This document shows, piece after piece, positions 47,533-58,183 of a stretch of DNA of 64,000 nt. The stretch is taken from NCBI GenBank assembly GCA_020629285.1, contig JAHDDP010000008.1, positions 1 to 64,000 of the forward strand. Reading direction: 5' to 3'. The stretch comes from Maribacter sp. Lineage in GTDB: Bacteria > Bacteroidota > Bacteroidia > Flavobacteriales > Flavobacteriaceae. The notes under the pieces are model-generated. The model did not search any database, was not told the DNA's origin, and saw nothing but the letters and a program-made list of their open reading frames with translations. The position numbers and the translations under genes are program-made. Numbering within the stretch: the stretch's first letter is position 1; the number at the start of each line of letters is the position of its first letter.

Positions 47533-47931
47533 TTATTTCCAAAACTGCCACCATTTTTTTTCATTTAAGGAACCTTCTTTTATTTGTTCTTGTAAAAATT
47601 TTTCATCATATAATTCACCCTCCTCACCCTGCACTTGAGCTTTAAGCTTATCAGCAATGGAAATCATTTTTATTATTATTTGTAAATCAGGATTTTTCAC
47701 AGAAATTCCCCAATTTTCATTGAAGGTAAAAGTTATAGCTCTATCTTGATACTCCCAAAGTCCAGCGTCTGGCGTTGGTACATTAAGAATATTACCATTA
47801 GGCATTTCTCCAGAAATTTCCTGAATTAGCTTAAATTCTGCATCAGATTCAATCAATTCTATCCACTCAGTTTTTGTAATTTTGTTACCATTAAGACGGT
47901 TAATTGTCAAGTTGTATCCCATATAAAACAT
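47533..47931 (-). CDS. Hypothetical soluble protein
   Basis: A 132-residue cytoplasmic protein of no recognised family. It begins MFYMGYNLTINRLNGNKITKTEW, and a second ATG three codons in (47922) may be the true start. It has alternating strand-like segments (RAITFTFNENWGISVKN) and ends in WWQFWK, so it may be a small binding protein. It lies downstream of the LytTR regulator gene on the same strand, but with a different feel of sequence and no shared operator. Confidence 0.62.
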   Translation of the reverse strand: MFYMGYNLTINRLNGNKITKTEWIELIESDAEFKLIQEISGEMPNGNILNVPTPDAGLWEYQDRAITFTFNENWGISVKNPDLQIIIKMISIADKLKAQVQGEEGELYDEKFLQEQIKEGSLNEKKWWQFWK

Positions 47932-47969: not shown

Positions 47970-48719
47970 CTACCTATGCATCTTATCTAAAATCTCAATA
48001 ATCTCGGTTTTCTTTCTAACAGATACTGGTACATTCTCTCCATTCTTCAACATTAAATAGCCGCCATCGGTTTTTATATATGCACTGATGCATTGAAGGT
48101 TTACTAAATGACTTTGGTGTACTCGTACAAAATCTTGACTACTTAAAAGGTCTGCAAAGTACTTTAAAGTCTTTGTTACGAATATCTTGCGTTTATCTTG
48201 TAGATGAAAAATGGTATTATTACTATCAGATTCGCACCGTATAATGTCATCTAAGCTGACAATTATAATTTGATCTAATGTATGTAGCGAAATCTTGTTC
48301 GGCTTTTTCTCTGGCGCTGCAATGGTTTCCTTTAAAATCTGTAAGCGTTCTTTATTTGGCTGTAATTGCTCTTTTGCACGTGAAATCGCTAAGCTTAAAT
48401 CGTCATTAGCATATGGTTTCAAAACATAATCTATGGCTGCAAATTTGAACGCACGAATTGCAAATTCATCACTTGCAGTTACGAATATGATTTTAGATTT
48501 TAAATCGGGGAATATCTCTAATATATCAAAGCCCGTACCATCACCCAACATAATATCCAAGAACAAAATGTCTGGTTGATTTTTACGCAATACCTTGGCA
48601 GCTTCCACTACACTCTGTGCCGTGGCGATAATTTCAATATCTGGATGCTGGGTCTCAATATCCTTTTTTAAAAGGGTCATGGCATCGATCATGTCTTCTA
48701 CTATTATCGCTGTATGCAT
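47970..48719 (-). CDS. LytTR-family response regulator
   Basis: A 249-residue two-component regulator: receiver domain (about 1-120) with phospho-acceptor Asp55 in ILFLDIMLGDG and acidic Glu8-Asp9, then a LytTR DNA-binding domain (about 145-247). It follows the sensor kinase by 6 bp. LytTR domains bind paired direct repeats about 21 bp apart. Two such sites are present, upstream of this operon (54391-54422) and of the VIT/vWA gene (56773-56804). These are its likely targets, which implies autoregulation. Confidence 0.95.
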   Translation of the reverse strand: MHTAIIVEDMIDAMTLLKKDIETQHPDIEIIATAQSVVEAAKVLRKNQPDILFLDIMLGDGTGFDILEIFPDLKSKIIFVTASDEFAIRAFKFAAIDYVLKPYANDDLSLAISRAKEQLQPNKERLQILKETIAAPEKKPNKISLHTLDQIIIVSLDDIIRCESDSNNTIFHLQDKRKIFVTKTLKYFADLLSSQDFVRVHQSHLVNLQCISAYIKTDGGYLMLKNGENVPVSVRKKTEIIEILDKMHR

Positions 48720-48725
48720 AGGTCT

Positions 48726-51700
48726 TTAATAATCTGTTAGTAAAGGTATTTTAAAGGTAATCTTGGTACCATCAATACTACCGTCTTCATTTTTGATTTC
48801 ACTGATATGCAGGGTATTGGTACCTACAATTGATTCTAGTCTTTCTTTAGTAACGGTCAATGCCATAGATTGATGGTCTGTTTTTGGCTTTTCGCTTTGC
48901 GATTTAAAAATACCTAATCCGTTATCAATAATACTACATTGTAAATGGGTCTCGCTAGTACTAAAACCTATCTCAAGTTTGCCCGGTTTATCGCCTTTTA
49001 AAATACCATGTCTAATGGCATTTTCCACAAATGGTTGAATTAACATTGGCGGAATCAATATCTCTTCGGCATCAGGATTAGTTTCTACCTTGATAGTATA
49101 CTCAAAAGGTTTCTGTGCCATTAATTGCTCCACTTCTACATAATGCCGCAACGCCTTAATTTCTTGGTCTAGACTAATATGCTCTTTCCTTGAATTCTGA
49201 AGTGTTTCTCTCAATAATATGGCAAAGCTATTAATGGTGGTATCCATCTTTTCTGGCTTGTTGCCTGCCATCGCTTTTATCCCATTCAACACATTGAATA
49301 TAAAATGCGGATTCATTTGTAATTGCAATGCTTTCTGCTCTAAGGTTAGCAGGTAATTTTGTGTTTTCAACCGTTCTTGCTCCGCTTTGTTCTTTGCTTT
49401 TATCTTACGAATGTAAAACCACCCAACACTTAACAATACAACAATTGCCAATGCTAAAACCGACCATTGAAACCAGTCTTTTTTGTACAGCGGACTATCA
49501 ATAAAAAAACCGAAATTTATAGGTTCACTTTCTTGCCATCTGTAATTTCTAGATTGCACTTGAAAAGTATGAGACCCATAAGCCAGACCTGCAAAATTTT
49601 GCTTGTTCTCTTTTACCCACGGACTCCAATCCGTTTCATCTAATCGTGTTCTGTACTCAATTTCATTTGGGTGATCCACATCTACCGTTCTGAATGAAAA
49701 ACCTAATTGTGTCTGCTCTGGAGTTAGTTGTAGTACCTTGTTACTATTTGTCCAGTCTTTTAAAATTAAAGAATCAATATTCTTATACCGCTCCTCTACT
49801 CCCATAAAATAAACTGTTGGTGCTAACGACGCCTTTTTGCTTTCACTAGGCACATGTTTAGTCAATCCGTAAATGGCACCAAACCATAGATTTCCAGAGT
49901 CATCTTTATCTACGGCATTTATGCAGGTTTCTATTCCTAAAAACCCGTCATTTCTACCAAAGTGATAGACGTCTAAAATTTCGTTATCAGGATTTAATTC
50001 TATTTTATCCACTCCCCTTTCGGAACCTGCCCACATGTACCCTTGGTCATCGAAAATGAGCTGATAAATGTTATTAGAAGACAAATTCTTGTTTCCTTTT
50101 AATTGTTGAAAATTTACAGGGTTTGTGCTGTTCGCATACCAAATACCCTTACCCGATGTACCTAAGAAAATAGTATCATCATGAAACAAAATCGTATTAA
50201 CTGCAGTTTGTTGTTCTAAACCGGTTTCAATACTGGTCACCTTGTTATTTTCTATATACCCTAAATGACCATTCTGTGTGGAGTACCACAGCTTACCATC
50301 TGGTGCTTTTACCATGCCTTTTATCAGCATATCGGCAATGCCATTTCGCTTAGAAAAGGTTTTTCTAACCACAAGGCTATCATTATCTGAATAGTAATTG
50401 AATTTCACTATACCATTGGCATAGGTAGCTGCCCAGATATAATCATCATCGGCAATTACGGTACGCACCCAATCTGAAGGAAAGCCTTTGCTCTCATCAA
50501 TGATATGATTGGTGGTTCTTTCTACAGAAACCGTATCTATCTGTATTAAAAAGGTTTCGCTTGATGAGAACACTAAACTATCTACCATTTTAGTTTCTCG
50601 AAATAAAAGCCCTCTATTGTCTGATCCTGCCCAAATATTGCCTTTTGAATCGCTATCGATTGTCTTGATCTTAACATCGAAAAATGTACCCTTACTTGGT
50701 AATGATTGAATTCCTGTGGAATCTATTTTTGCCAAACCAGCTTCTGATGTGGAAAACCATAATCCGTCTGCAGCATTATGCACCGCATAAACCCGATTTC
50801 CCTTTAGACCTGATCTTTGATTATAATGCTTAAAGTTATTCTGAAAGTACTTGTAAAATCCGCCACCAGATGTAGCAATCCATAAATTGCCATTGTCATC
50901 TTTTACTACTTTTCTAATATGCGGAGTTGCTAAACCACTAGCTGTATTCAATTGCTTTATCTCTGCAAATTTATTCGTTTCTACAATAGCAATGCCCTCA
51001 TTGTCAGTAGCTACCCATAACTCATCTGTATTTTGAATTGACATGGAGTTTATACGCGATGGTTCTGGCATTAGAAACCTGTCATCGTTATTATCTTGAT
51101 CGATGATAAATACACCATCATCAAAAGTAGCCGCAAGAATTTTGTTTTGATGTGCAATAACGGACTTAAAATTATTGACTTCTAATTTTGTTTTTTCTGT
51201 TGCTGAATCGCTTAATTCATTCAGTTTCCATAAGCCATTATTGGTTGCTAACCAATAGTAATCTCCATCAAAAAAAATAGAATTGATTTCGCTAGAATCT
51301 ATTTCAGGATTAATAGTAACCTTACTTAATTCTTTATTTTTAGAATAACTATAGAGACCTTTTTTAGTACCCACATACATCACATTTTCAGCAGTGTAGA
51401 ATTGAAGAATTTGTGGGGAATTAAAATTTACGAAGTTGTTCTTAACTTTTATAGAAAGTCCTTTTCTGGTTCCCACAAAAAGCGAGTCATTTGTGGTATA
51501 TAAGGCATCAATATAATTAGAGAGTAAATCGTCACTTTCATTCCATACTTCAAAGGTTTCGCCATCAAAATTTGCCAATCCGCCACCTTGGGTTGCCAAC
51601 CACAGATAACCCATTTCATCTTGTACAATATCATATACTTGAGACTGTGGTAAACCATCTGCAATGGTATATGCCCGTAACTGGCTATTTTGCGCAGCTA

Positions 51701-51758
51701 AGTGCATTATTCCAAAGAAACAAAATACCCATAAGACGTATTTAGTAAACAGATTCAA
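48726..51758 (-). CDS. LytS-type sensor histidine kinase with propeller sensor domains
   Basis: A 1010-residue inner-membrane sensor. The signal peptide (about 1-22) is followed by a long periplasmic region of Reg_prop beta-propeller repeats (to about 640; for example DGLPQSQVYDIVQDEMGYLWLATQGGGL near 33-60), a Y_Y_Y domain (about 660-745), one helix (about 755-775) and a His-kinase/ATPase region with the phospho-acceptor segment QMNPHFIFNVLNGIKA near 820 and the ATP-site PPMLIQPFVENAIRHG near 925. The only possible start is TTG 51758; an upstream stop excludes anything else. It signals to the LytTR regulator at 47970, but the ligand is unknown. Confidence 0.93.
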   Translation of the reverse strand: MNLFTKYVLWVFCFFGIMHLAAQNSQLRAYTIADGLPQSQVYDIVQDEMGYLWLATQGGGLANFDGETFEVWNESDDLLSNYIDALYTTNDSLFVGTRKGLSIKVKNNFVNFNSPQILQFYTAENVMYVGTKKGLYSYSKNKELSKVTINPEIDSSEINSIFFDGDYYWLATNNGLWKLNELSDSATEKTKLEVNNFKSVIAHQNKILAATFDDGVFIIDQDNNDDRFLMPEPSRINSMSIQNTDELWVATDNEGIAIVETNKFAEIKQLNTASGLATPHIRKVVKDDNGNLWIATSGGGFYKYFQNNFKHYNQRSGLKGNRVYAVHNAADGLWFSTSEAGLAKIDSTGIQSLPSKGTFFDVKIKTIDSDSKGNIWAGSDNRGLLFRETKMVDSLVFSSSETFLIQIDTVSVERTTNHIIDESKGFPSDWVRTVIADDDYIWAATYANGIVKFNYYSDNDSLVVRKTFSKRNGIADMLIKGMVKAPDGKLWYSTQNGHLGYIENNKVTSIETGLEQQTAVNTILFHDDTIFLGTSGKGIWYANSTNPVNFQQLKGNKNLSSNNIYQLIFDDQGYMWAGSERGVDKIELNPDNEILDVYHFGRNDGFLGIETCINAVDKDDSGNLWFGAIYGLTKHVPSESKKASLAPTVYFMGVEERYKNIDSLILKDWTNSNKVLQLTPEQTQLGFSFRTVDVDHPNEIEYRTRLDETDWSPWVKENKQNFAGLAYGSHTFQVQSRNYRWQESEPINFGFFIDSPLYKKDWFQWSVLALAIVVLLSVGWFYIRKIKAKNKAEQERLKTQNYLLTLEQKALQLQMNPHFIFNVLNGIKAMAGNKPEKMDTTINSFAILLRETLQNSRKEHISLDQEIKALRHYVEVEQLMAQKPFEYTIKVETNPDAEEILIPPMLIQPFVENAIRHGILKGDKPGKLEIGFSTSETHLQCSIIDNGLGIFKSQSEKPKTDHQSMALTVTKERLESIVGTNTLHISEIKNEDGSIDGTKITFKIPLLTDY

Positions 51759-51799: not shown

Positions 51800-52831
51800 C
51801 TATAATATTTGATATAATAAAGGGTCTTGTATGTTTGTGTTTTGGTACTCACTAGCATCATTAGCCTGCAAAATAGGTGCCAATACGCAGAGTACGGTTG
51901 TTTTTCCTTTTATTATTAATTTATTTCCTTGTACCCTACTTCTCCAACGAAATTTTTCTATCGGAATGTTCAATTTAAACAATACCTCTGACATTTCTGG
52001 AGATTCTGAAATCCAATCCATAATTGCCTCTTTGTCTTCTAAAGTAGGAATATCGGTAACAGCATCAAAAGTAAACTCCCAATCTACCGGAATATTAAAC
52101 TTGAAACTATAGGCTTTACCAAATGAAGACTCTTGCCTTGTCTTTAACGCTTTAAACCAATCGATAGCTACATCAGGATATGCTTGCTTAAACTCCTTTG
52201 CAAGATGCGCAGGTCCTTTAGATTCTGCTGTTGGGTAATACCCGTAATAGGGCTTTGCCAAATAGTGATCTGCATATTTACCACCGAATACATTAAAGAA
52301 TGATGACGCCACTACTTGCTCTGCTTTAAACGTATTTTTAAATTCTTGAAGTAAGGGTTGATTTTCTCCTAATCCGCACGAATGAAATATTATTTTAGAA
52401 CCACTAGCAGTGTTATCACACATTGTTTCTATACTATAATTTTGTACTGCATTTTGTAATGTACTTACGGTAATTCGCTCTCCTGTTTTTGTAGTCTTTA
52501 AAGACATACCCAACCAGGCATTACTATGACTTACAATGTGTATTTCTTTAAAACGTACTTGATTTTCTCCTGCACTATTTAGATAACTTACAATCTCATC
52601 AATAGCATATAAACTATCTACAATTGGCATTCCTTGTTTTTCAAAATACTGCTTGGCATTGCTATAATAGGTGTTATCACCTTCATCAAAACCAGCAATA
52701 AATACTATAGCTTCTTGTACCATTTCTTTTTTGGTAGGTGAAGCAAGTGCCGCTCCCGACTGTTGCGAAAACGGCTTCTTACCACCTAGGATTAGCACAC
52801 TAACCAATACTATAATTAAACACTTATTCAT
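51800..52831 (-). CDS. Secreted protein with CHAT/DUF4347-like His-Cys peptidase-type core
   Basis: A 343-residue exported protein (N-terminal hydrophobic segment MNKCLIIVLVSVLILGG, then FSQQ). Its core reads IHIVSHSNAWLG (His102) and FHSCGLGENQPLL (Cys152), and then VVASSFFNVFGG. This order resembles the DUF4347/clan CD pattern in which His and Cys form a catalytic pair. The match is by eye and uncertain. It lies third of five in an operon with an SH3 protein, a small secreted protein and the LytTR two-component genes. Confidence 0.6.
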   Translation of the reverse strand: MNKCLIIVLVSVLILGGKKPFSQQSGAALASPTKKEMVQEAIVFIAGFDEGDNTYYSNAKQYFEKQGMPIVDSLYAIDEIVSYLNSAGENQVRFKEIHIVSHSNAWLGMSLKTTKTGERITVSTLQNAVQNYSIETMCDNTASGSKIIFHSCGLGENQPLLQEFKNTFKAEQVVASSFFNVFGGKYADHYLAKPYYGYYPTAESKGPAHLAKEFKQAYPDVAIDWFKALKTRQESSFGKAYSFKFNIPVDWEFTFDAVTDIPTLEDKEAIMDWISESPEMSEVLFKLNIPIEKFRWRSRVQGNKLIIKGKTTVLCVLAPILQANDASEYQNTNIQDPLLYQIL

Positions 52832-52840
52832 AATTATTTT

Positions 52841-53734
52841 TTAAAAGTCTATACTTACTACAGCAGCATCTTTAATCTCACGAACTTCTTCTTTCTTAAT
52901 TAATTTGGATCCATTCCATATATACGAAGTGGTAATGAATTCTACGTTGTTTTGTGCCAATGCATCATCAAGTGTTTTGATGTTTTTTGTAATGGTCGTT
53001 TTCAACAAAATAGTACTCTTAACACCTTGCATATCCGACGGAAAAACAAAAGACTCGGTCTTTAAATAATTGGTGTCTGCATAGTCTATTAAACTTGCCA
53101 CTTTTTTGAATCTACCATTGTTCCAAAACAGGTAGCTTTTACCTACTTGGTAACCTGTGTCTTTATCAGCTAAATCTACTGTGATTACATCTTCAACATT
53201 GAACAAACCTAAACTACCGTGGTTTTCAATATGAACCGGAATCGCAGCAAGACTATCCAATACCATTTTGTCTAATTGTTGTCCGTTTTTAAAGGCACGT
53301 AACTGGAATTTTGTTTCTGTAACTCCAGATTCGTTTTTGGCACTACTTTCATAACCATACACAAACTTCACTTGGTTGTCTGCAATACTCCCAAAAGATT
53401 TTTGAGCGATCATACCTCCCCAAACCCATCCGGTTTCATTGCCTGTTGTTACTCGGTACCAGTGACTATTGATGCCATCTATTTCTTTAGAGTACATGCT
53501 TTTTTCCCACAATACCATTTTAGTTCCGATATCTAGAAGTGTTACTTTTTTACTTCTAACAGATGGCTTTTCACGAAGAAATACTTTGTGAGCCAATAAA
53601 TACTCATACGTTAGTTCTTCTGCAGGAATATCTTTATCCATCACTTCAAATTCTACTTGTTCTACACTTTGGGCGAACATGTTTACAAATGCAAATAAGC
53701 ATAGGAATAAGGCACTTTTCTTTAAATTTTTCAT
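52841..53734 (-). CDS. Secreted SH3-domain protein
   Basis: A 297-residue exported protein: signal peptide (MKNLKKSALFLCLFAFVNMFAQ), a bacterial SH3 domain at about 48-112 (FLREKPSVRSKKVTLLDIGTKMVLWEK and GWVWGGMI), and a long C-terminal part with beta-rich character. Bacterial SH3 domains bind peptidoglycan peptides. It lies 21 bp after the small secreted gene and 9 bp before the DUF4347-like gene, so the same operon. A role in sensing or acting on the cell wall is a guess from this domain. Confidence 0.82.
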   Translation of the reverse strand: MKNLKKSALFLCLFAFVNMFAQSVEQVEFEVMDKDIPAEELTYEYLLAHKVFLREKPSVRSKKVTLLDIGTKMVLWEKSMYSKEIDGINSHWYRVTTGNETGWVWGGMIAQKSFGSIADNQVKFVYGYESSAKNESGVTETKFQLRAFKNGQQLDKMVLDSLAAIPVHIENHGSLGLFNVEDVITVDLADKDTGYQVGKSYLFWNNGRFKKVASLIDYADTNYLKTESFVFPSDMQGVKSTILLKTTITKNIKTLDDALAQNNVEFITTSYIWNGSKLIKKEEVREIKDAAVVSIDF

Positions 53735-53755: not shown

Positions 53756-54319
53756 TTAATAATTAATTGCTGTTATAGCGTCTTCAGTATCAAAATCATC
53801 GTCGTTCCAGACGATGCTTCTAAGTACTTTAATGTCTTTAATAGTAGCTGTTTCTGTGTATTCTAATGCTGCTCTTAGTATGGTTCCTTCTTTACCGAAT
53901 AATTGGTTAGGAAAAATGTAGTGTATGTCTAAAATAGGTTCGTAGGCATACTCATTCTTTATACCTGGCAGCGCGATAAAATCTTTGTCATTACTTACCA
54001 AATAATAGAACTCTTCTGTGCTTGAACAGCAAGCATTATATTCTAGTGTTACTTTTAAGATTTCATTGATATCTTCTAGATCAGGATTGCTTAAAACCGA
54101 GATTCGTATTTCATCTAGTAAACCGAAATCTGAGATAGATAATGTCGCAACATGACTTTCTGGATTGTTTGATTCGATTACGTCTACCAACCAGGTGTCT
54201 TCCTCTTCTTGACCACTACTTCTTTGGTTTGTAATATCGTAGGTATCCGTTAATTGAAACTCCTGTGCATTGGTGATACAAATGCTGAATAAAAAGGCGA
54301 ATAAGATTAAATTTTTCAT
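53756..54319 (-). CDS. Secreted hypothetical protein, first gene of the LytTR operon
   Basis: A 187-residue exported protein with a signal peptide (MKNLILFAFLFSICITNAQ) and no recognised domain. It has two adjacent cysteines (NACCSSTEEF near 94-99) and is rich in Asp/Glu. It is the first gene after a paired-direct-repeat LytTR-type site and a -7-like box TAATTTAG (54353-54360), and precedes the SH3, DUF4347-like, kinase and regulator genes with small gaps (21, 9, 41 and 6 bp). Confidence 0.78.
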   Translation of the reverse strand: MKNLILFAFLFSICITNAQEFQLTDTYDITNQRSSGQEEEDTWLVDVIESNNPESHVATLSISDFGLLDEIRISVLSNPDLEDINEILKVTLEYNACCSSTEEFYYLVSNDKDFIALPGIKNEYAYEPILDIHYIFPNQLFGKEGTILRAALEYTETATIKDIKVLRSIVWNDDDFDTEDAITAINY

Positions 54320-54352
54320 ACTGTTATTTTTAGTTGTTTTCTTTCTACACTA

Positions 54353-54422
54353 CTAAATTACAGTAGAGACAGCGCTCTTAAGAGGGTGTTCTAGTATTCG
54401 TAGCACCTCATCTAGAATTCGT
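54353..54422 (-). promoter_or_regulatory. LytTR-type paired repeat and -7 box of the secreted-protein/two-component operon
   Basis: Plus-strand reading: CTAGTATTCGT (54391-54401) and CTAGAATTCGT (54412-54422) are direct repeats offset by 21 bp, the two-helical-turn spacing of LytTR-domain sites. A -7-like box TAATTTAG (minus strand, 54353-54360) follows 30 bp away. The operon's start codon is 71 bp away. The same layout occurs at 56735-56804. Confidence 0.8.
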
Positions 54423-54483
54423 TGAATATGCTGTAATTATTTATTCTGCACCTGTTCTTTATTGAGTTTATTACAAAAGAAAA

Positions 54484-54512
54484 ACCTGCAAGATTTTACA
54501 AATCTCACAGGT
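54484..54512 (-). terminator. Intrinsic terminator after the VIT/vWA gene
   Basis: On the minus strand the stem ACCTGTGAGATTT/AATCTTGCAGGT (54512-54500 and 54495-54484) is followed by a T-rich stretch. One mismatch lies in the stem. It ends transcripts from the VIT/vWA gene. Confidence 0.7.
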
Positions 54513-54554
54513 CTCCTCCTCCTTTCGGAGAACCAACTAACAAAAACTAACTAC

Positions 54555-56702
54555 CTATTTTTTCAACGTTAATGTAATTTCTTTTTTAACGGATTTTAAA
54601 CTGATTTTCTCCAATTCTGATTGCATGTTTTTATCAATCGTCCAGCTACCATTTTCTAATTTCTCTACACGTATCACCTTGCCTTGTGAATTGAATTTTA
54701 TTAGTAAGCTTTCATACTTTTTTAAGTACTCAGTTATTAGTTTGGTATACATCACTTTGAACTCCATCGTCAATTGTCTTTTTACATTCTTCTCTATTTC
54801 GTTTTCAAAATCTATGGTAAATGTGCGTTTAAATTTGCTACTCTCTTTTACCTCAGCTTCTGCACCAACGGCTGAATTATTTACATTATTAGGCATTGGC
54901 AACGGTTGCTTCACTTTGGTCAATGAACCGTCCTCATTTACTATGGCTTCATCTACCGCTACAAAAGAAGTGTAGTTGGTAAGTAGGTTGTATTTTAACC
55001 CTAAAGCAACTACCTCACCTTTTACGTCTTCATTGAACAAGTTTTTATAATCATCTAACTCCGCTATTTTCTTTCTTGCCCATAAGTAACGTAATGCTTT
55101 GTTCTGCTTACTTAAATGCCCATCAGATACATTATACACTTCTCTAAATCGTTTTTTACCTTGATAGCCGGTAACTATAATTTTTCCTTCTGCCTTGCCT
55201 CTATATTTACCATGAACAATAACTGGTCTTGCCGCAAATACATCTGGTATACTCTTTTGGGCTAGGTCATACATATCAAAGCCTTTCGACTCTATTTTTA
55301 CTCGTGTTAATAATGGTGTAGCAATATATTTCGCAAAGTCTTTGGCTACTTCTGCCGCTTCTTCAGATGTGGTTGCAATAAAGGATTCACTATTAGAAAC
55401 CTTTGCCATACCTTCTATTAAATACCAATTGACACTAGAACCGATACCGAAGGTGAATATATTGGCTTTATCCAAATTTGAACTTATCAGCTCAAAAGCT
55501 TCTTTTTCAACACTTACATAGCCGTCAGTGATAATAACCATAGAACGGGCACTACCCATATCTTTTCTTGGTAATTTATATGCCTCGTGTAATGCGCTCA
55601 ATAATTGAGTACCACCACCGCCTTGACCTTCTGATAAAAAACGAATGGCTGCTTCAATATTCTGCTCGGTCGATTCTACCGGTGTAGCACTGAAAACAGT
55701 TGAACTAGATGCGAATAACTGAACATTGAAGGTGTCGCTCATTCGTAAATTGCAAAGTAGGTTTCGCATTAATTGTCTTGATATTTCTAAAGGGTATCCG
55801 TTCATAGAACCTGATACGTCTACAATAAACAAGTACTCACGTGACGGAATATCTTCTAACTCCACATTTTTACTTGGCTCCATTTGATAGGTAAAAAAGT
55901 TCTCATCTTCCCCCTCATACATCAATAATCCCGTTTGTATTTGGTTTCCTCGTAAGTTATAATTCAATATAAAATCTCTGTTCGACGGATTCTTATTCCC
56001 TTCGGATAAAAAGACTTCAGCTGTTTTCGCATCAGGATGCTTTACGGTTACTTTATGACTAGTGCTATTTATATTCTGAATGATCATACCCGCATTCAAG
56101 GTTACCGTCATATCAAAATCAAAACTATCTGCAATACCCTTTGCCGTGTATGGCATATTGAAACTCTCTTCATTTTGAGTGCTCTCACCCGTGAACCTTG
56201 GACCTACAACACCTGGCGCTACAAATTGATATTCCCCATTTACAGGCACCAATATTTCTGTATAATAAATATCTATGGCAATTTCATCGCCAGGCATAAT
56301 ATTACCCACATTCATTTTAAACACGTTGGGTCTGTCTTGGTCTAATTTCGCTGCTCGATTGCCTTCGCTCAAAGCGGTTTCATATACTTTTTGGGCTTCT
56401 TGCTTTTCAAATATTTTGGCATTTACAATTCTATTGCCAATAGTCATCTGCATTTTATGTACCGCTGCCTGTGTAGAAAGCGGAAATATATATTTTGCTT
56501 CTACTGCCCCTGCTCCCTTATTTTGATATACCTGTGTTACCCTAACATGAGCAATAGTACCAGATATTTCAACTTCTGTTTTTGAAGATTTTAAGGGTAT
56601 GACCGCATCTTCTGTAGAAACCAATAAATACGGACTGTCATTATCTTGAGAGTAACCTGTGAATATGGTGCAACACAGTAAAAAGGTGTAAAGTAGTTTC
56701 AT
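54555..56702 (-). CDS. Secreted VIT/von Willebrand factor A domain protein
   Basis: A 715-residue exported protein: signal peptide (MKLLYTFLLCCTIFTGYSQ), VIT domain (about 25-155, with the VRVTQVYQNKGAGAVEAKYIFPLSTQAAVH region near 52-80), a vWA domain (about 285-460) with the intact metal-binding MIDAS DVSGSMNG near 295, and a C-terminal region. This is the inter-alpha-trypsin-inhibitor heavy-chain-like layout used for protein contacts outside the cell. It has the same LytTR-type site and spacing as the adjacent LytTR operon, so it is a likely target of that regulator. Confidence 0.93.
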   Translation of the reverse strand: MKLLYTFLLCCTIFTGYSQDNDSPYLLVSTEDAVIPLKSSKTEVEISGTIAHVRVTQVYQNKGAGAVEAKYIFPLSTQAAVHKMQMTIGNRIVNAKIFEKQEAQKVYETALSEGNRAAKLDQDRPNVFKMNVGNIMPGDEIAIDIYYTEILVPVNGEYQFVAPGVVGPRFTGESTQNEESFNMPYTAKGIADSFDFDMTVTLNAGMIIQNINSTSHKVTVKHPDAKTAEVFLSEGNKNPSNRDFILNYNLRGNQIQTGLLMYEGEDENFFTYQMEPSKNVELEDIPSREYLFIVDVSGSMNGYPLEISRQLMRNLLCNLRMSDTFNVQLFASSSTVFSATPVESTEQNIEAAIRFLSEGQGGGGTQLLSALHEAYKLPRKDMGSARSMVIITDGYVSVEKEAFELISSNLDKANIFTFGIGSSVNWYLIEGMAKVSNSESFIATTSEEAAEVAKDFAKYIATPLLTRVKIESKGFDMYDLAQKSIPDVFAARPVIVHGKYRGKAEGKIIVTGYQGKKRFREVYNVSDGHLSKQNKALRYLWARKKIAELDDYKNLFNEDVKGEVVALGLKYNLLTNYTSFVAVDEAIVNEDGSLTKVKQPLPMPNNVNNSAVGAEAEVKESSKFKRTFTIDFENEIEKNVKRQLTMEFKVMYTKLITEYLKKYESLLIKFNSQGKVIRVEKLENGSWTIDKNMQSELEKISLKSVKKEITLTLKK

Positions 56703-56734
56703 GATCGTAGTTTTAGATTATTATTATTTGAAGT

Positions 56735-56804
56735 AAAATCTAACTGCGAACTACTCGTAAAATGGGTGCCTTTTAGTATTCGTTGGGTATGAACTAGAAT
56801 TCGT
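56735..56804 (-). promoter_or_regulatory. LytTR-type paired repeat and -7 box of the VIT/vWA gene
   Basis: Plus-strand reading: TTAGTATTCGT (56773-56783) and CTAGAATTCGT (56794-56804), offset 21 bp. The minus-strand -7-like box TAGATTTT (56735-56742) is 30 bp from the first repeat. Gene start is 70 bp away. Repeat sequence, spacing and box distance are the same as at 54353-54422. Confidence 0.8.
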
Positions 56805-56827: not shown

Positions 56828-56871
56828 CTGACGAATATCATGTACCACTAATTCAATGATTTATACCTTTA
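56828..56871 (+). promoter_or_regulatory. FNR-type operator and -7 box of the flavin-type protein gene
   Basis: CTGACGAATATCAT at 56828-56841 (TGAC-N4-ATCA) lies 22 bp from TACCTTTA (56864-56871), a one-mismatch box. The box lies beyond the upstream ATG 56856, which argues that translation begins at ATG 56898. Confidence 0.74.
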
Positions 56872-57424: not shown

Positions 57425-58183
57425 TTAGTTACTTTCAAACAGAAACCGTTTCTCAAAACTATCTTTTAAAAGCTGGCGTGCCGAAGTCAATAATTCTTCT
57501 ACTTTTGTCAATGTTGTTTTACGTATGTCTGCTATTTCTTCAATAGTTAAACCTTCGTTCGTAAAAAGTTCAAATACCGTTCTCATTGGCAGGTTCATTT
57601 TATCTAAGACCAATTGTACATGATTATATATACGTTCTTTATCTAATGTAGCATCTAGCTTATCTGCCAATTTTTTTTCTTCCTCGGTTATAAAGACGTG
57701 GTTAAGAGAATAGTTGCTTTTATTTAAAGACTTATCATCCATCTCATCTAAAAGTAAAAAGTCACCATCAGCGTCTTGTGTATAATTTTCTTCCATGGCA
57801 TCCCATTCTGGTTTTGAATACGTATCTATATTATCAAAAAAAACATGGTCAAACTCCTCCTCTACCAAACTATCTTCTAATAACTCATCTACTTTTTTGA
57901 ATAGAAAAACATGCAATTCATTTTCACTTTTTATATCATCGATATTATCATACACTTCTATAAAAAGTTGATCTGTAAAATCGCTCGGGTTAAACATACC
58001 TTTATTTAACTTTCCATTTGCTATGGCACTATTCAACCTTTTAGACACATATCTGTAAATTTGAGGGAGTACCTTTAATAGTTCTGTATTGAAAGATTCT
58101 CTATTCTCTTTTCGTTTATAAGAGACCAGTTTAGAATACGTTTCTTTCATTATTATTCTTATATCATTCATGGTAGCTTCCAT
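57425..58183 (-). CDS. Sigma-70-like protein with long acidic middle
   Basis: A 252-residue protein. Its C-terminal part (about 195-245), LPMRTVFELFTNEGLTIEEIADIRKTTLTKVEELLTSARQLL, looks like sigma region 4 with a helix-turn-helix. The N-terminal part (about 1-110) has a weak sigma region 2-like helix pattern (RYVSKRL...DFTDQLFIEVYDNIDDI). The middle (about 110-175) is long and acidic, unlike ordinary ECF sigma factors. It could be a sigma factor or a sigma-like regulator. It is divergent from the cation ATPase with an FNR-type site between. Confidence 0.75.
   Translation of the reverse strand: MEATMNDIRIIMKETYSKLVSYKRKENRESFNTELLKVLPQIYRYVSKRLNSAIANGKLNKGMFNPSDFTDQLFIEVYDNIDDIKSENELHVFLFKKVDELLEDSLVEEEFDHVFFDNIDTYSKPEWDAMEENYTQDADGDFLLLDEMDDKSLNKSNYSLNHVFITEEEKKLADKLDATLDKERIYNHVQLVLDKMNLPMRTVFELFTNEGLTIEEIADIRKTTLTKVEELLTSARQLLKDSFEKRFLFESN

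Follow-up and report, generated by a model that had tools for sequence, protein, structure and literature searches.

Paired direct-repeat sites point to a LytTR regulon of a sensor kinase operon and a VIT/vWA gene in Maribacter and related Flavobacteriaceae

Two matching paired sites lie upstream of a five-gene operon and of a VIT/vWA protein gene in a Maribacter sp. genome and, judging from their sequence, they very probably serve as binding sites for a single regulator that responds to a signal. It appears highly likely that this is the LytTR response regulator encoded by the last gene of the operon and that the sites are its operators; through it the adjoining sensor kinase would drive activation of both the operon and the VIT/vWA gene. 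The analysis was centered on a stretch of 64,000 nucleotides, hereafter the window (contig JAHDDP010000008.1 of assembly GCA_020629285.1, positions 1 to 64,000). The sites, their confinement to this locus in the source genome, their co-occurrence with the regulator among related genomes and their fixed geometry are observed directly.

Two paired sites and their genes in the Maribacter window

The pattern YTAGTATTCGT-N10-CTAGAATTCGT matched exactly at 54391-54422 and 56773-56804, with no third copy in the whole window, and none of 100 dinucleotide shuffles of the window contained a match. Relaxing the pattern to at most 3 mismatches recovered the same two sites only (shuffle mean 0.03, maximum 1). 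A previous sequence-only reading of this DNA had reported paired repeats at these positions, with an offset of 21 bp, 30 bp to a -7-like box and 70-71 bp to the start codon. The pattern scan confirmed the repeats and remeasurement gave the same distances: the offset is 21 bp at both sites, and the edges at 54391 and 56773 lie 30 nt from their respective -7-like boxes and 71 and 70 nt from the ATG codons at 54319 and 56702. Since the operon and the VIT/vWA gene are both on the minus strand, the functional reading is ACGAATTCTA-N11-ACGAATACTA, and each site, read along transcription, is a 31-base direct repeat ACGAATNCTA-N11-ACGAATNCTA (Table 1).

We then considered the entire source assembly (3.6 Mb, 144 contigs, 83% complete). 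The two window sites were the sole matches at 0-2 mismatches, and at this stringency no large regulon was found in the 83% complete assembly. Allowing up to 3 mismatches gave 9 matches, versus 9 for a reversed control pattern, and the seven extra ones are background. Two 99%-complete congeners likewise carry just two sites each at up to 2 mismatches. The earlier reading had named numerous copies beside unrelated genes as the finding that would speak against it; the scan of the source genome showed none of this.

Table 1. Features of the locus (window positions).
Feature	Position	Strand	Basis
Operon, five genes	54319 to 47970	minus	
Candidate paired site for the regulator at the operon promoter, ACGAATTCTA-N11-ACGAATACTA	54392..54422	minus	pattern scans; kept in relatives
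-7 box TAATTTAG	54353..54360	minus	31 nt past the 31-bp site; same place in 35 relatives' promoters
Predicted transcription start, operon	near 54348	minus	-7 box placement according to a passage of PMC9723704
Operon gene 1, g187: 187 aa, probably secreted, beta-rich model	53756..54319	minus	secretion by eye from N-terminus
Operon gene 2: probably secreted protein, SH3_3 domain	52841..53734	minus	secretion by eye from N-terminus
Operon gene 3, g343: probably secreted 343-aa protein, putatively caspase/CHAT-like, candidate H102/C152 dyad	51800..52831	minus	secretion by eye; model
Operon gene 4: sensor kinase, 1010 aa, Reg_prop propeller and His_kinase/HATPase	48726..51758	minus	
Operon gene 5: response regulator, 249 aa, receiver and LytTR DNA-binding domain	47970..48719	minus	
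Candidate paired site for the regulator at the VIT/vWA promoter, ACGAATTCTA-N11-ACGAATACTA	56774..56804	minus	pattern scans; kept in relatives
-7 box TAGATTTT	56735..56742	minus	31 nt past the site; relatives' promoters
Predicted transcription start, VIT/vWA gene	near 56730	minus	
VIT/vWA protein gene, predicted target of the second site	54555..56702	minus	

A domain scan of the gene at 47970-48719 (Response_reg 8.4e-16, LytTR 1.3e-18) agreed with the earlier view that a LytTR regulator closes the first operon; its residue D55 is invariant in 23 aligned sequences. The adjoining gene encodes the kinase domain PF06580 (His_kinase, 3.1e-20). The VIT/vWA protein shares its VIT plus vWA architecture with TIGR03788, a marine proteobacterial sortase target, and aligns with it over residues 40-608; unlike members of that family, it scores below the cut-off (374.6 bits, cut-off 551.65), and by eye no LPXTG or other surface-sorting tail was seen at its end. 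VIT/vWA-type proteins elsewhere in bacteria bear such tails, as described in a portion of PMC3237569.

The structural model of g343 (pLDDT 82.6) had its best match in 9qpe_G (Z 9.5, rmsd 3.6, 147 aligned), with further matches in 8tl0_D, a SAVED-CHAT protein (Z 8.1, rmsd 4.1, 145 aligned), and 7zoq_A (Z 8.1, rmsd 3.5, 133 aligned). Caspases, legumains, CHAT and related proteases made up most of its neighbors among the best 50 rows; Foldseek rows for methyltransferases and flavodoxins were set aside, with TM at most 0.37. A profile search of g343 against sequences of solved structures returned no match up to E 1, and DUF4347 matched weakly in 10 of 15 g343 members (E up to 1, best 6e-4), the window protein being without a match. 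Alignment and model place the candidate residues H102 and C152 of the window protein each after a strand, yet both are absent in 3 of the 15 aligned members (L093, L102 and L108), so enzyme activity would not be general. For the beta-rich model of g187 no fold match exceeded Z 6.2 among the rows listed, and with so low a best score we claim no fold for it.

Two further open reading frames lie close by. One of 132 aa (47533-47931) shares the strand of the regulator gene, starts 38 bp past it and might be an operon member. The other, at 57425-58183 near the VIT/vWA gene, matches Sigma70_r4_2 (E 4.8e-4) and sigma70-ECF (E 5.6e-8), both below cut-off.

Promoter geometry and co-occurrence of site and regulator

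The typical Bacteroidota promoter combines a -7 box with a -33 TTTG. To describe the promoters behind the sites, we used the ungapped alignment of 35 relatives' sites (22 from operons, 12 from VIT/vWA genes and 1 from a lipoprotein gene), a set that leaves out the two window sites and the G224 operon with its 1-mismatch site (C91). All 35 promoters have a TAnnTTTG-like -7 box at site positions 63-70, with A64, T67 and T68 in 35/35, G70 in 33/35 and T63 in 32/35, and a TTG in the -33 region was present in a single one. Half-sites and -7 box are conserved in these promoters, while much of the spacer and flanks diverge, and both window boxes are one base off TAnnTTTG. According to a passage of PMC9723704, the Flavobacterium -7 box spans -12 to -5, which would center the sites near -59. 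Such fixed spacing to the -7 box with hardly any -33 element is the layout predicted for activator-dependent promoters.

Similar spacing was seen in a wider scan of genome contigs. We scanned one genome per species across 84,980 species and obtained at least 115 stretches with at least 127 exact matches. For the 123 distinct listed matches followed by 90 nt or more of sequence, the -7 box stood at offset 32 in 80, at 31 in 7, at 33 in 5 and at 53 in 10, with a background mean of 0.32 per offset away from 31-33 and 52-54. The 33 listed matches without a box at 32 or 53 comprise 12 with one at 31 or 33 and 21 with none at these offsets either. Seven matches among the 80 titled stretches come from Lachnospiraceae, Oscillospiraceae, Acidobacteria and Litorilituus; none has a box at offset 32, and they are natural chance controls.

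The sign of regulation is not directly given by comparative data, and the sites could in principle be operators of a repressor. We consider this very unlikely, since the site center at about -59 lies wholly upstream of the -7 box and a repressor would not need such phasing; the fixed 31-nt spacing (about 21 nt more at alpha-2-macroglobulin genes, see below) and the near absence of a -33 element also argue against repression.

Site and regulator travel together. At thresholds of E<=1e-70 for regulator and E<=1e-100 for VIT/vWA orthologues, a regulator orthologue is found in 24 of 299 family genomes, representing 20 genera. The exact site occurs in 22 of the 299, all of which carry the regulator (22/22), and in 0 of the 275 regulator-less genomes (Fisher p about 2e-31, with relatedness left out of account); the remaining 2 regulator genomes (G093 and G235) have a 1-mismatch site. 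Five regulator-less genomes also have a 1-mismatch site (G042, G085, G168, G189 and G236), and in the two of them inspected, G168 and G189, it falls inside a gene. Matches with up to 2 mismatches occur in 75 of the 299 genomes, most of them probably by chance, because the reversed control pattern matches many genomes too. VIT/vWA orthologues are present in 13/299 genomes, every one regulator-positive and with a site in front of the gene. Outside family f1, the regulator was found in 0 of 246 order-level genomes at E<=1e-70; a single 2-mismatch composite match there (G400) was taken as chance, the reversed control also giving one (G050). The in-family genome G539 adds one more regulator and site.

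With 11 LytTR domain matches in the source genome, some other LytTR protein might likewise bind the sites, whose overall layout is common to LytTR sites (passages of PMC4847170), and the local kinase-regulator pair might then be no more than a target. We give this little credence: genomes with the exact site all fall within the regulator genomes, and in 22 of 22 operon stretches the regulator itself is one of the operon genes that follow a site. These stretches are among 40 examined from relatives, each of the 22 from another genome and with the site ahead of the operon in every case; including the window, this arrangement of site and orthologous operon is shared by 23 genomes of 19 genera. 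All 22 retain kinase and regulator, and g187, the SH3 gene and g343 vary. The sequence-only reading had the local regulator control both promoters, a proposal that gains comparative support from the 22/22 co-occurrence, the conserved positions and the fixed distance to the -7 box.

Twelve of the 40 stretches hold the VIT/vWA gene, each time downstream of a site; other stretches surround further sites, some without a recognised gene nearby. In the window, the second site lies in an intergenic stretch common to the VIT/vWA gene and a divergent PNPOx-like gene at 56856, which it might serve instead or in addition. This we regard as highly improbable and reject the PNPOx-like neighbor as owner of the site, as that gene is present in only 1/40 stretches (L109), and the site precedes the VIT/vWA gene in 13/13 genomes with its -7 box oriented toward it.

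The internal geometry of the site is equally constant. When exact half-site pairs were sought in the 24 regulator genomes with any gap of 0-30 bp, all 36 pairs had an 11-bp gap, equivalent to a 21-bp period, and 22 of the 24 genomes have such a pair; the reversed control gave 1 match. The 10-nt repeats and gap of 11 in the window agree with the LytTR layout of two repeats of 9-11 nt, 11-13 nt apart, given in part of PMC4847170. The genomes are related by descent, so co-occurrence and conservation counts are not independent; even so, a chance or mobile repeat with no regulatory role has a negligible probability and was rejected on the shuffles, the genome scan, the constant gap and the promoter alignment, in which half-sites and -7 box stand out amid differing spacers and flanks.

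Alpha-2-macroglobulin and other genes behind the sites

Extra sites in five genomes precede a gene for a lipoprotein of about 1860 aa, which is a thioester alpha-2-macroglobulin. The representative protein P0001 (L085) has MG2, bMG3, bMG5, bMG6, A2M_BRD, A2M, TED_complement and bMG10 domains above cut-offs and contains the GCVEQ thioester. Alpha-2-macroglobulin is present in 16 of the 24 regulator genomes; of 36 genomes without the regulator, picked by handle, 21 have it; it was not found in the source genome or its two congeners (0/3). A matrix built from 34 sites of operons and VIT/vWA genes detected a site upstream of the gene in 9 of the 16 regulator genomes (scores 7.3 to 27.2, 0/200 shuffles each), although the cut at 7 was chosen after the scores had been seen and five of the nine positives had pointed to alpha-2-macroglobulin beforehand. 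By the same matrix, 0 of the 21 regulator-less genomes had a site there (best score -2.7; Fisher p 9e-5), nor did the other 7 of the 16 regulator genomes (best score -8.4). The relatives' regulon would thus often include a thioester alpha-2-macroglobulin, a predicted target that is new in this analysis.

The promoters of these genes show a second spacing. Among 18 distinct alpha-2-macroglobulin promoters with a site, the -7 box stands at 53 in 12, at 54 in one and at 31-32 in 3; in the other 2 it was found nowhere by pattern, one of them (L131) having TACATTAC at 53. An offset of 53 exceeds 32 by 21, which adds the length of one 21-bp repeat between site and -7 box. In 6 of the 18 promoters the site is followed by a third half-site, a weaker one with up to 3 mismatches.

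Across species, 83 of the 127 listed matches precede five gene families: g187 (28), VIT/vWA (22), g343 (16), alpha-2-macroglobulin (10) and SH3 (7). In 4 more listed matches the site is followed by a 190-aa lipoprotein, split by eye from the VIT/vWA cluster.

Several individual loci carry other genes. In L094 a penicillin-binding protein 1C-like protein was noted by eye downstream of the alpha-2-macroglobulin gene; penicillin-binding protein 1C is a known E. coli partner of alpha-2-macroglobulin (part of PMC4498604). The many-site genomes G177 and G138 have further genes behind sites in L073 (7164-8327), L072 (6051-7976) and L081 (6332-7567), one for an astacin protease that carries a carbohydrate-binding module, one for a secreted ricin-B-lectin protein bearing a T9SS tail and one PSP1-domain gene; the site is exact at the astacin and PSP1 genes and has 2 mismatches at the ricin-B-lectin gene. 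In L107 (6079-7764) an exact site is flanked on one side by another LytTR-type regulator, distinct from the first (39% identical), and on the other by a 267-aa protein with a lipoprotein-like start and no Pfam match. Finally, exact sites whose -7 box stands at 31-33 are found in L227, L245, L269, L283, L212, L233, L272 and L202. An open reading frame of 45-52 aa follows in all but L202, for which an ATG-only scan listed none, and probably encodes a single-pass membrane protein of the MKKLLIPIILICFAV...FVHIDNMNK type; the five of these loci with titles shown are all Aquimarina.

Proposed mechanism and relation to known systems

Binding, phosphorylation, activation and a role in envelope defence are what we infer from the sequence comparisons, as follows. 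The propeller kinase would detect an extracytoplasmic cue and phosphorylate the LytTR regulator, a dimer of which would occupy two direct half-sites 21 bp, or two helical turns, apart, centered at about -59. There it would bring RNA polymerase, carrying the main sigma factor, to a promoter with a -7 but no -33 box, turning on the VIT/vWA gene and the operon with its three secreted proteins, kinase and regulator. Since kinase and regulator lie within their own target operon, positive feedback would result. In many relatives the regulon would also take in the thioester alpha-2-macroglobulin, which hints at a system that guards the cell envelope. More tentatively, it might be a dedicated protease-defence response of marine Flavobacteriaceae under signal control, in which one propeller kinase and LytTR regulator co-induce a thioester alpha-2-macroglobulin trap, an inter-alpha-trypsin-inhibitor-like VIT/vWA protein, a secreted caspase/CHAT-like protein and SH3 proteins through two helically phased layouts one 21-bp repeat apart, Maribacter having the VIT/vWA protein and no macroglobulin; we regard this as possible but doubtful.

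Overall, this would be a LytTR two-component regulon of known type with an unexpectedly coherent target set. BtsS/BtsR and YpdA/YpdB of E. coli likewise pair a LytS-type kinase with a LytTR regulator, and the sites of YpdB and BtsR also have a 21-bp period. A section of PMC4847170 gives GGCATTTCAT, directly repeated, as the sequence bound by YpdB, unlike the half-site ACGAATNCTA found here. The Maribacter kinase has a propeller; the title of PMC10653868 calls BtsS a 7-transmembrane receptor. In contrast to both E. coli systems, kinase and regulator belong to their own target operon, and the predicted targets are mostly secreted proteins rather than transporters (excerpt of PMC5552118). AgrA of Staphylococcus aureus uses direct repeats centered near -60 at promoters with suboptimal -35/-10 spacing, as stated in part of PMC4227749. 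The center here is similar, but the -33 element is nearly always absent, the predicted promoter is of the Bacteroidota sigma-A type (TAnnTTTG-like), the targets differ and, unlike with AgrA, no peptide quorum genes were found among the scanned operon genes. E. coli YfhM, which acts with PBP1C, resembles the relatives' predicted target, a protein with bacterial macroglobulin domains and a GCVEQ thioester that differs in being one of several putative LytTR targets; its gene was not found in the source genome or the two congeners. Bacteroidota hybrid two-component systems join propeller sensor, kinase, receiver and DNA-binding domain in one protein; we rejected this class here, as kinase and regulator are separate genes and the output domain is LytTR.

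Titles and abstracts returned by searches of the open-licence literature contained nothing on a LytTR regulon in flavobacteria or on a tie between one and alpha-2-macroglobulin, and named no trigger of alpha-2-macroglobulin or VIT/vWA proteins in these bacteria. The sites define a predicted LytTR regulon in Flavobacteriaceae to base level, with a promoter code of site, 31 or about 52 nt, -7 box and almost no -33 box. One sensor kinase would tie together alpha-2-macroglobulin and VIT/vWA proteins, and the inducer of bacterial protease traps would become testable in culturable Maribacter, Aquimarina or Psychroserpens strains.
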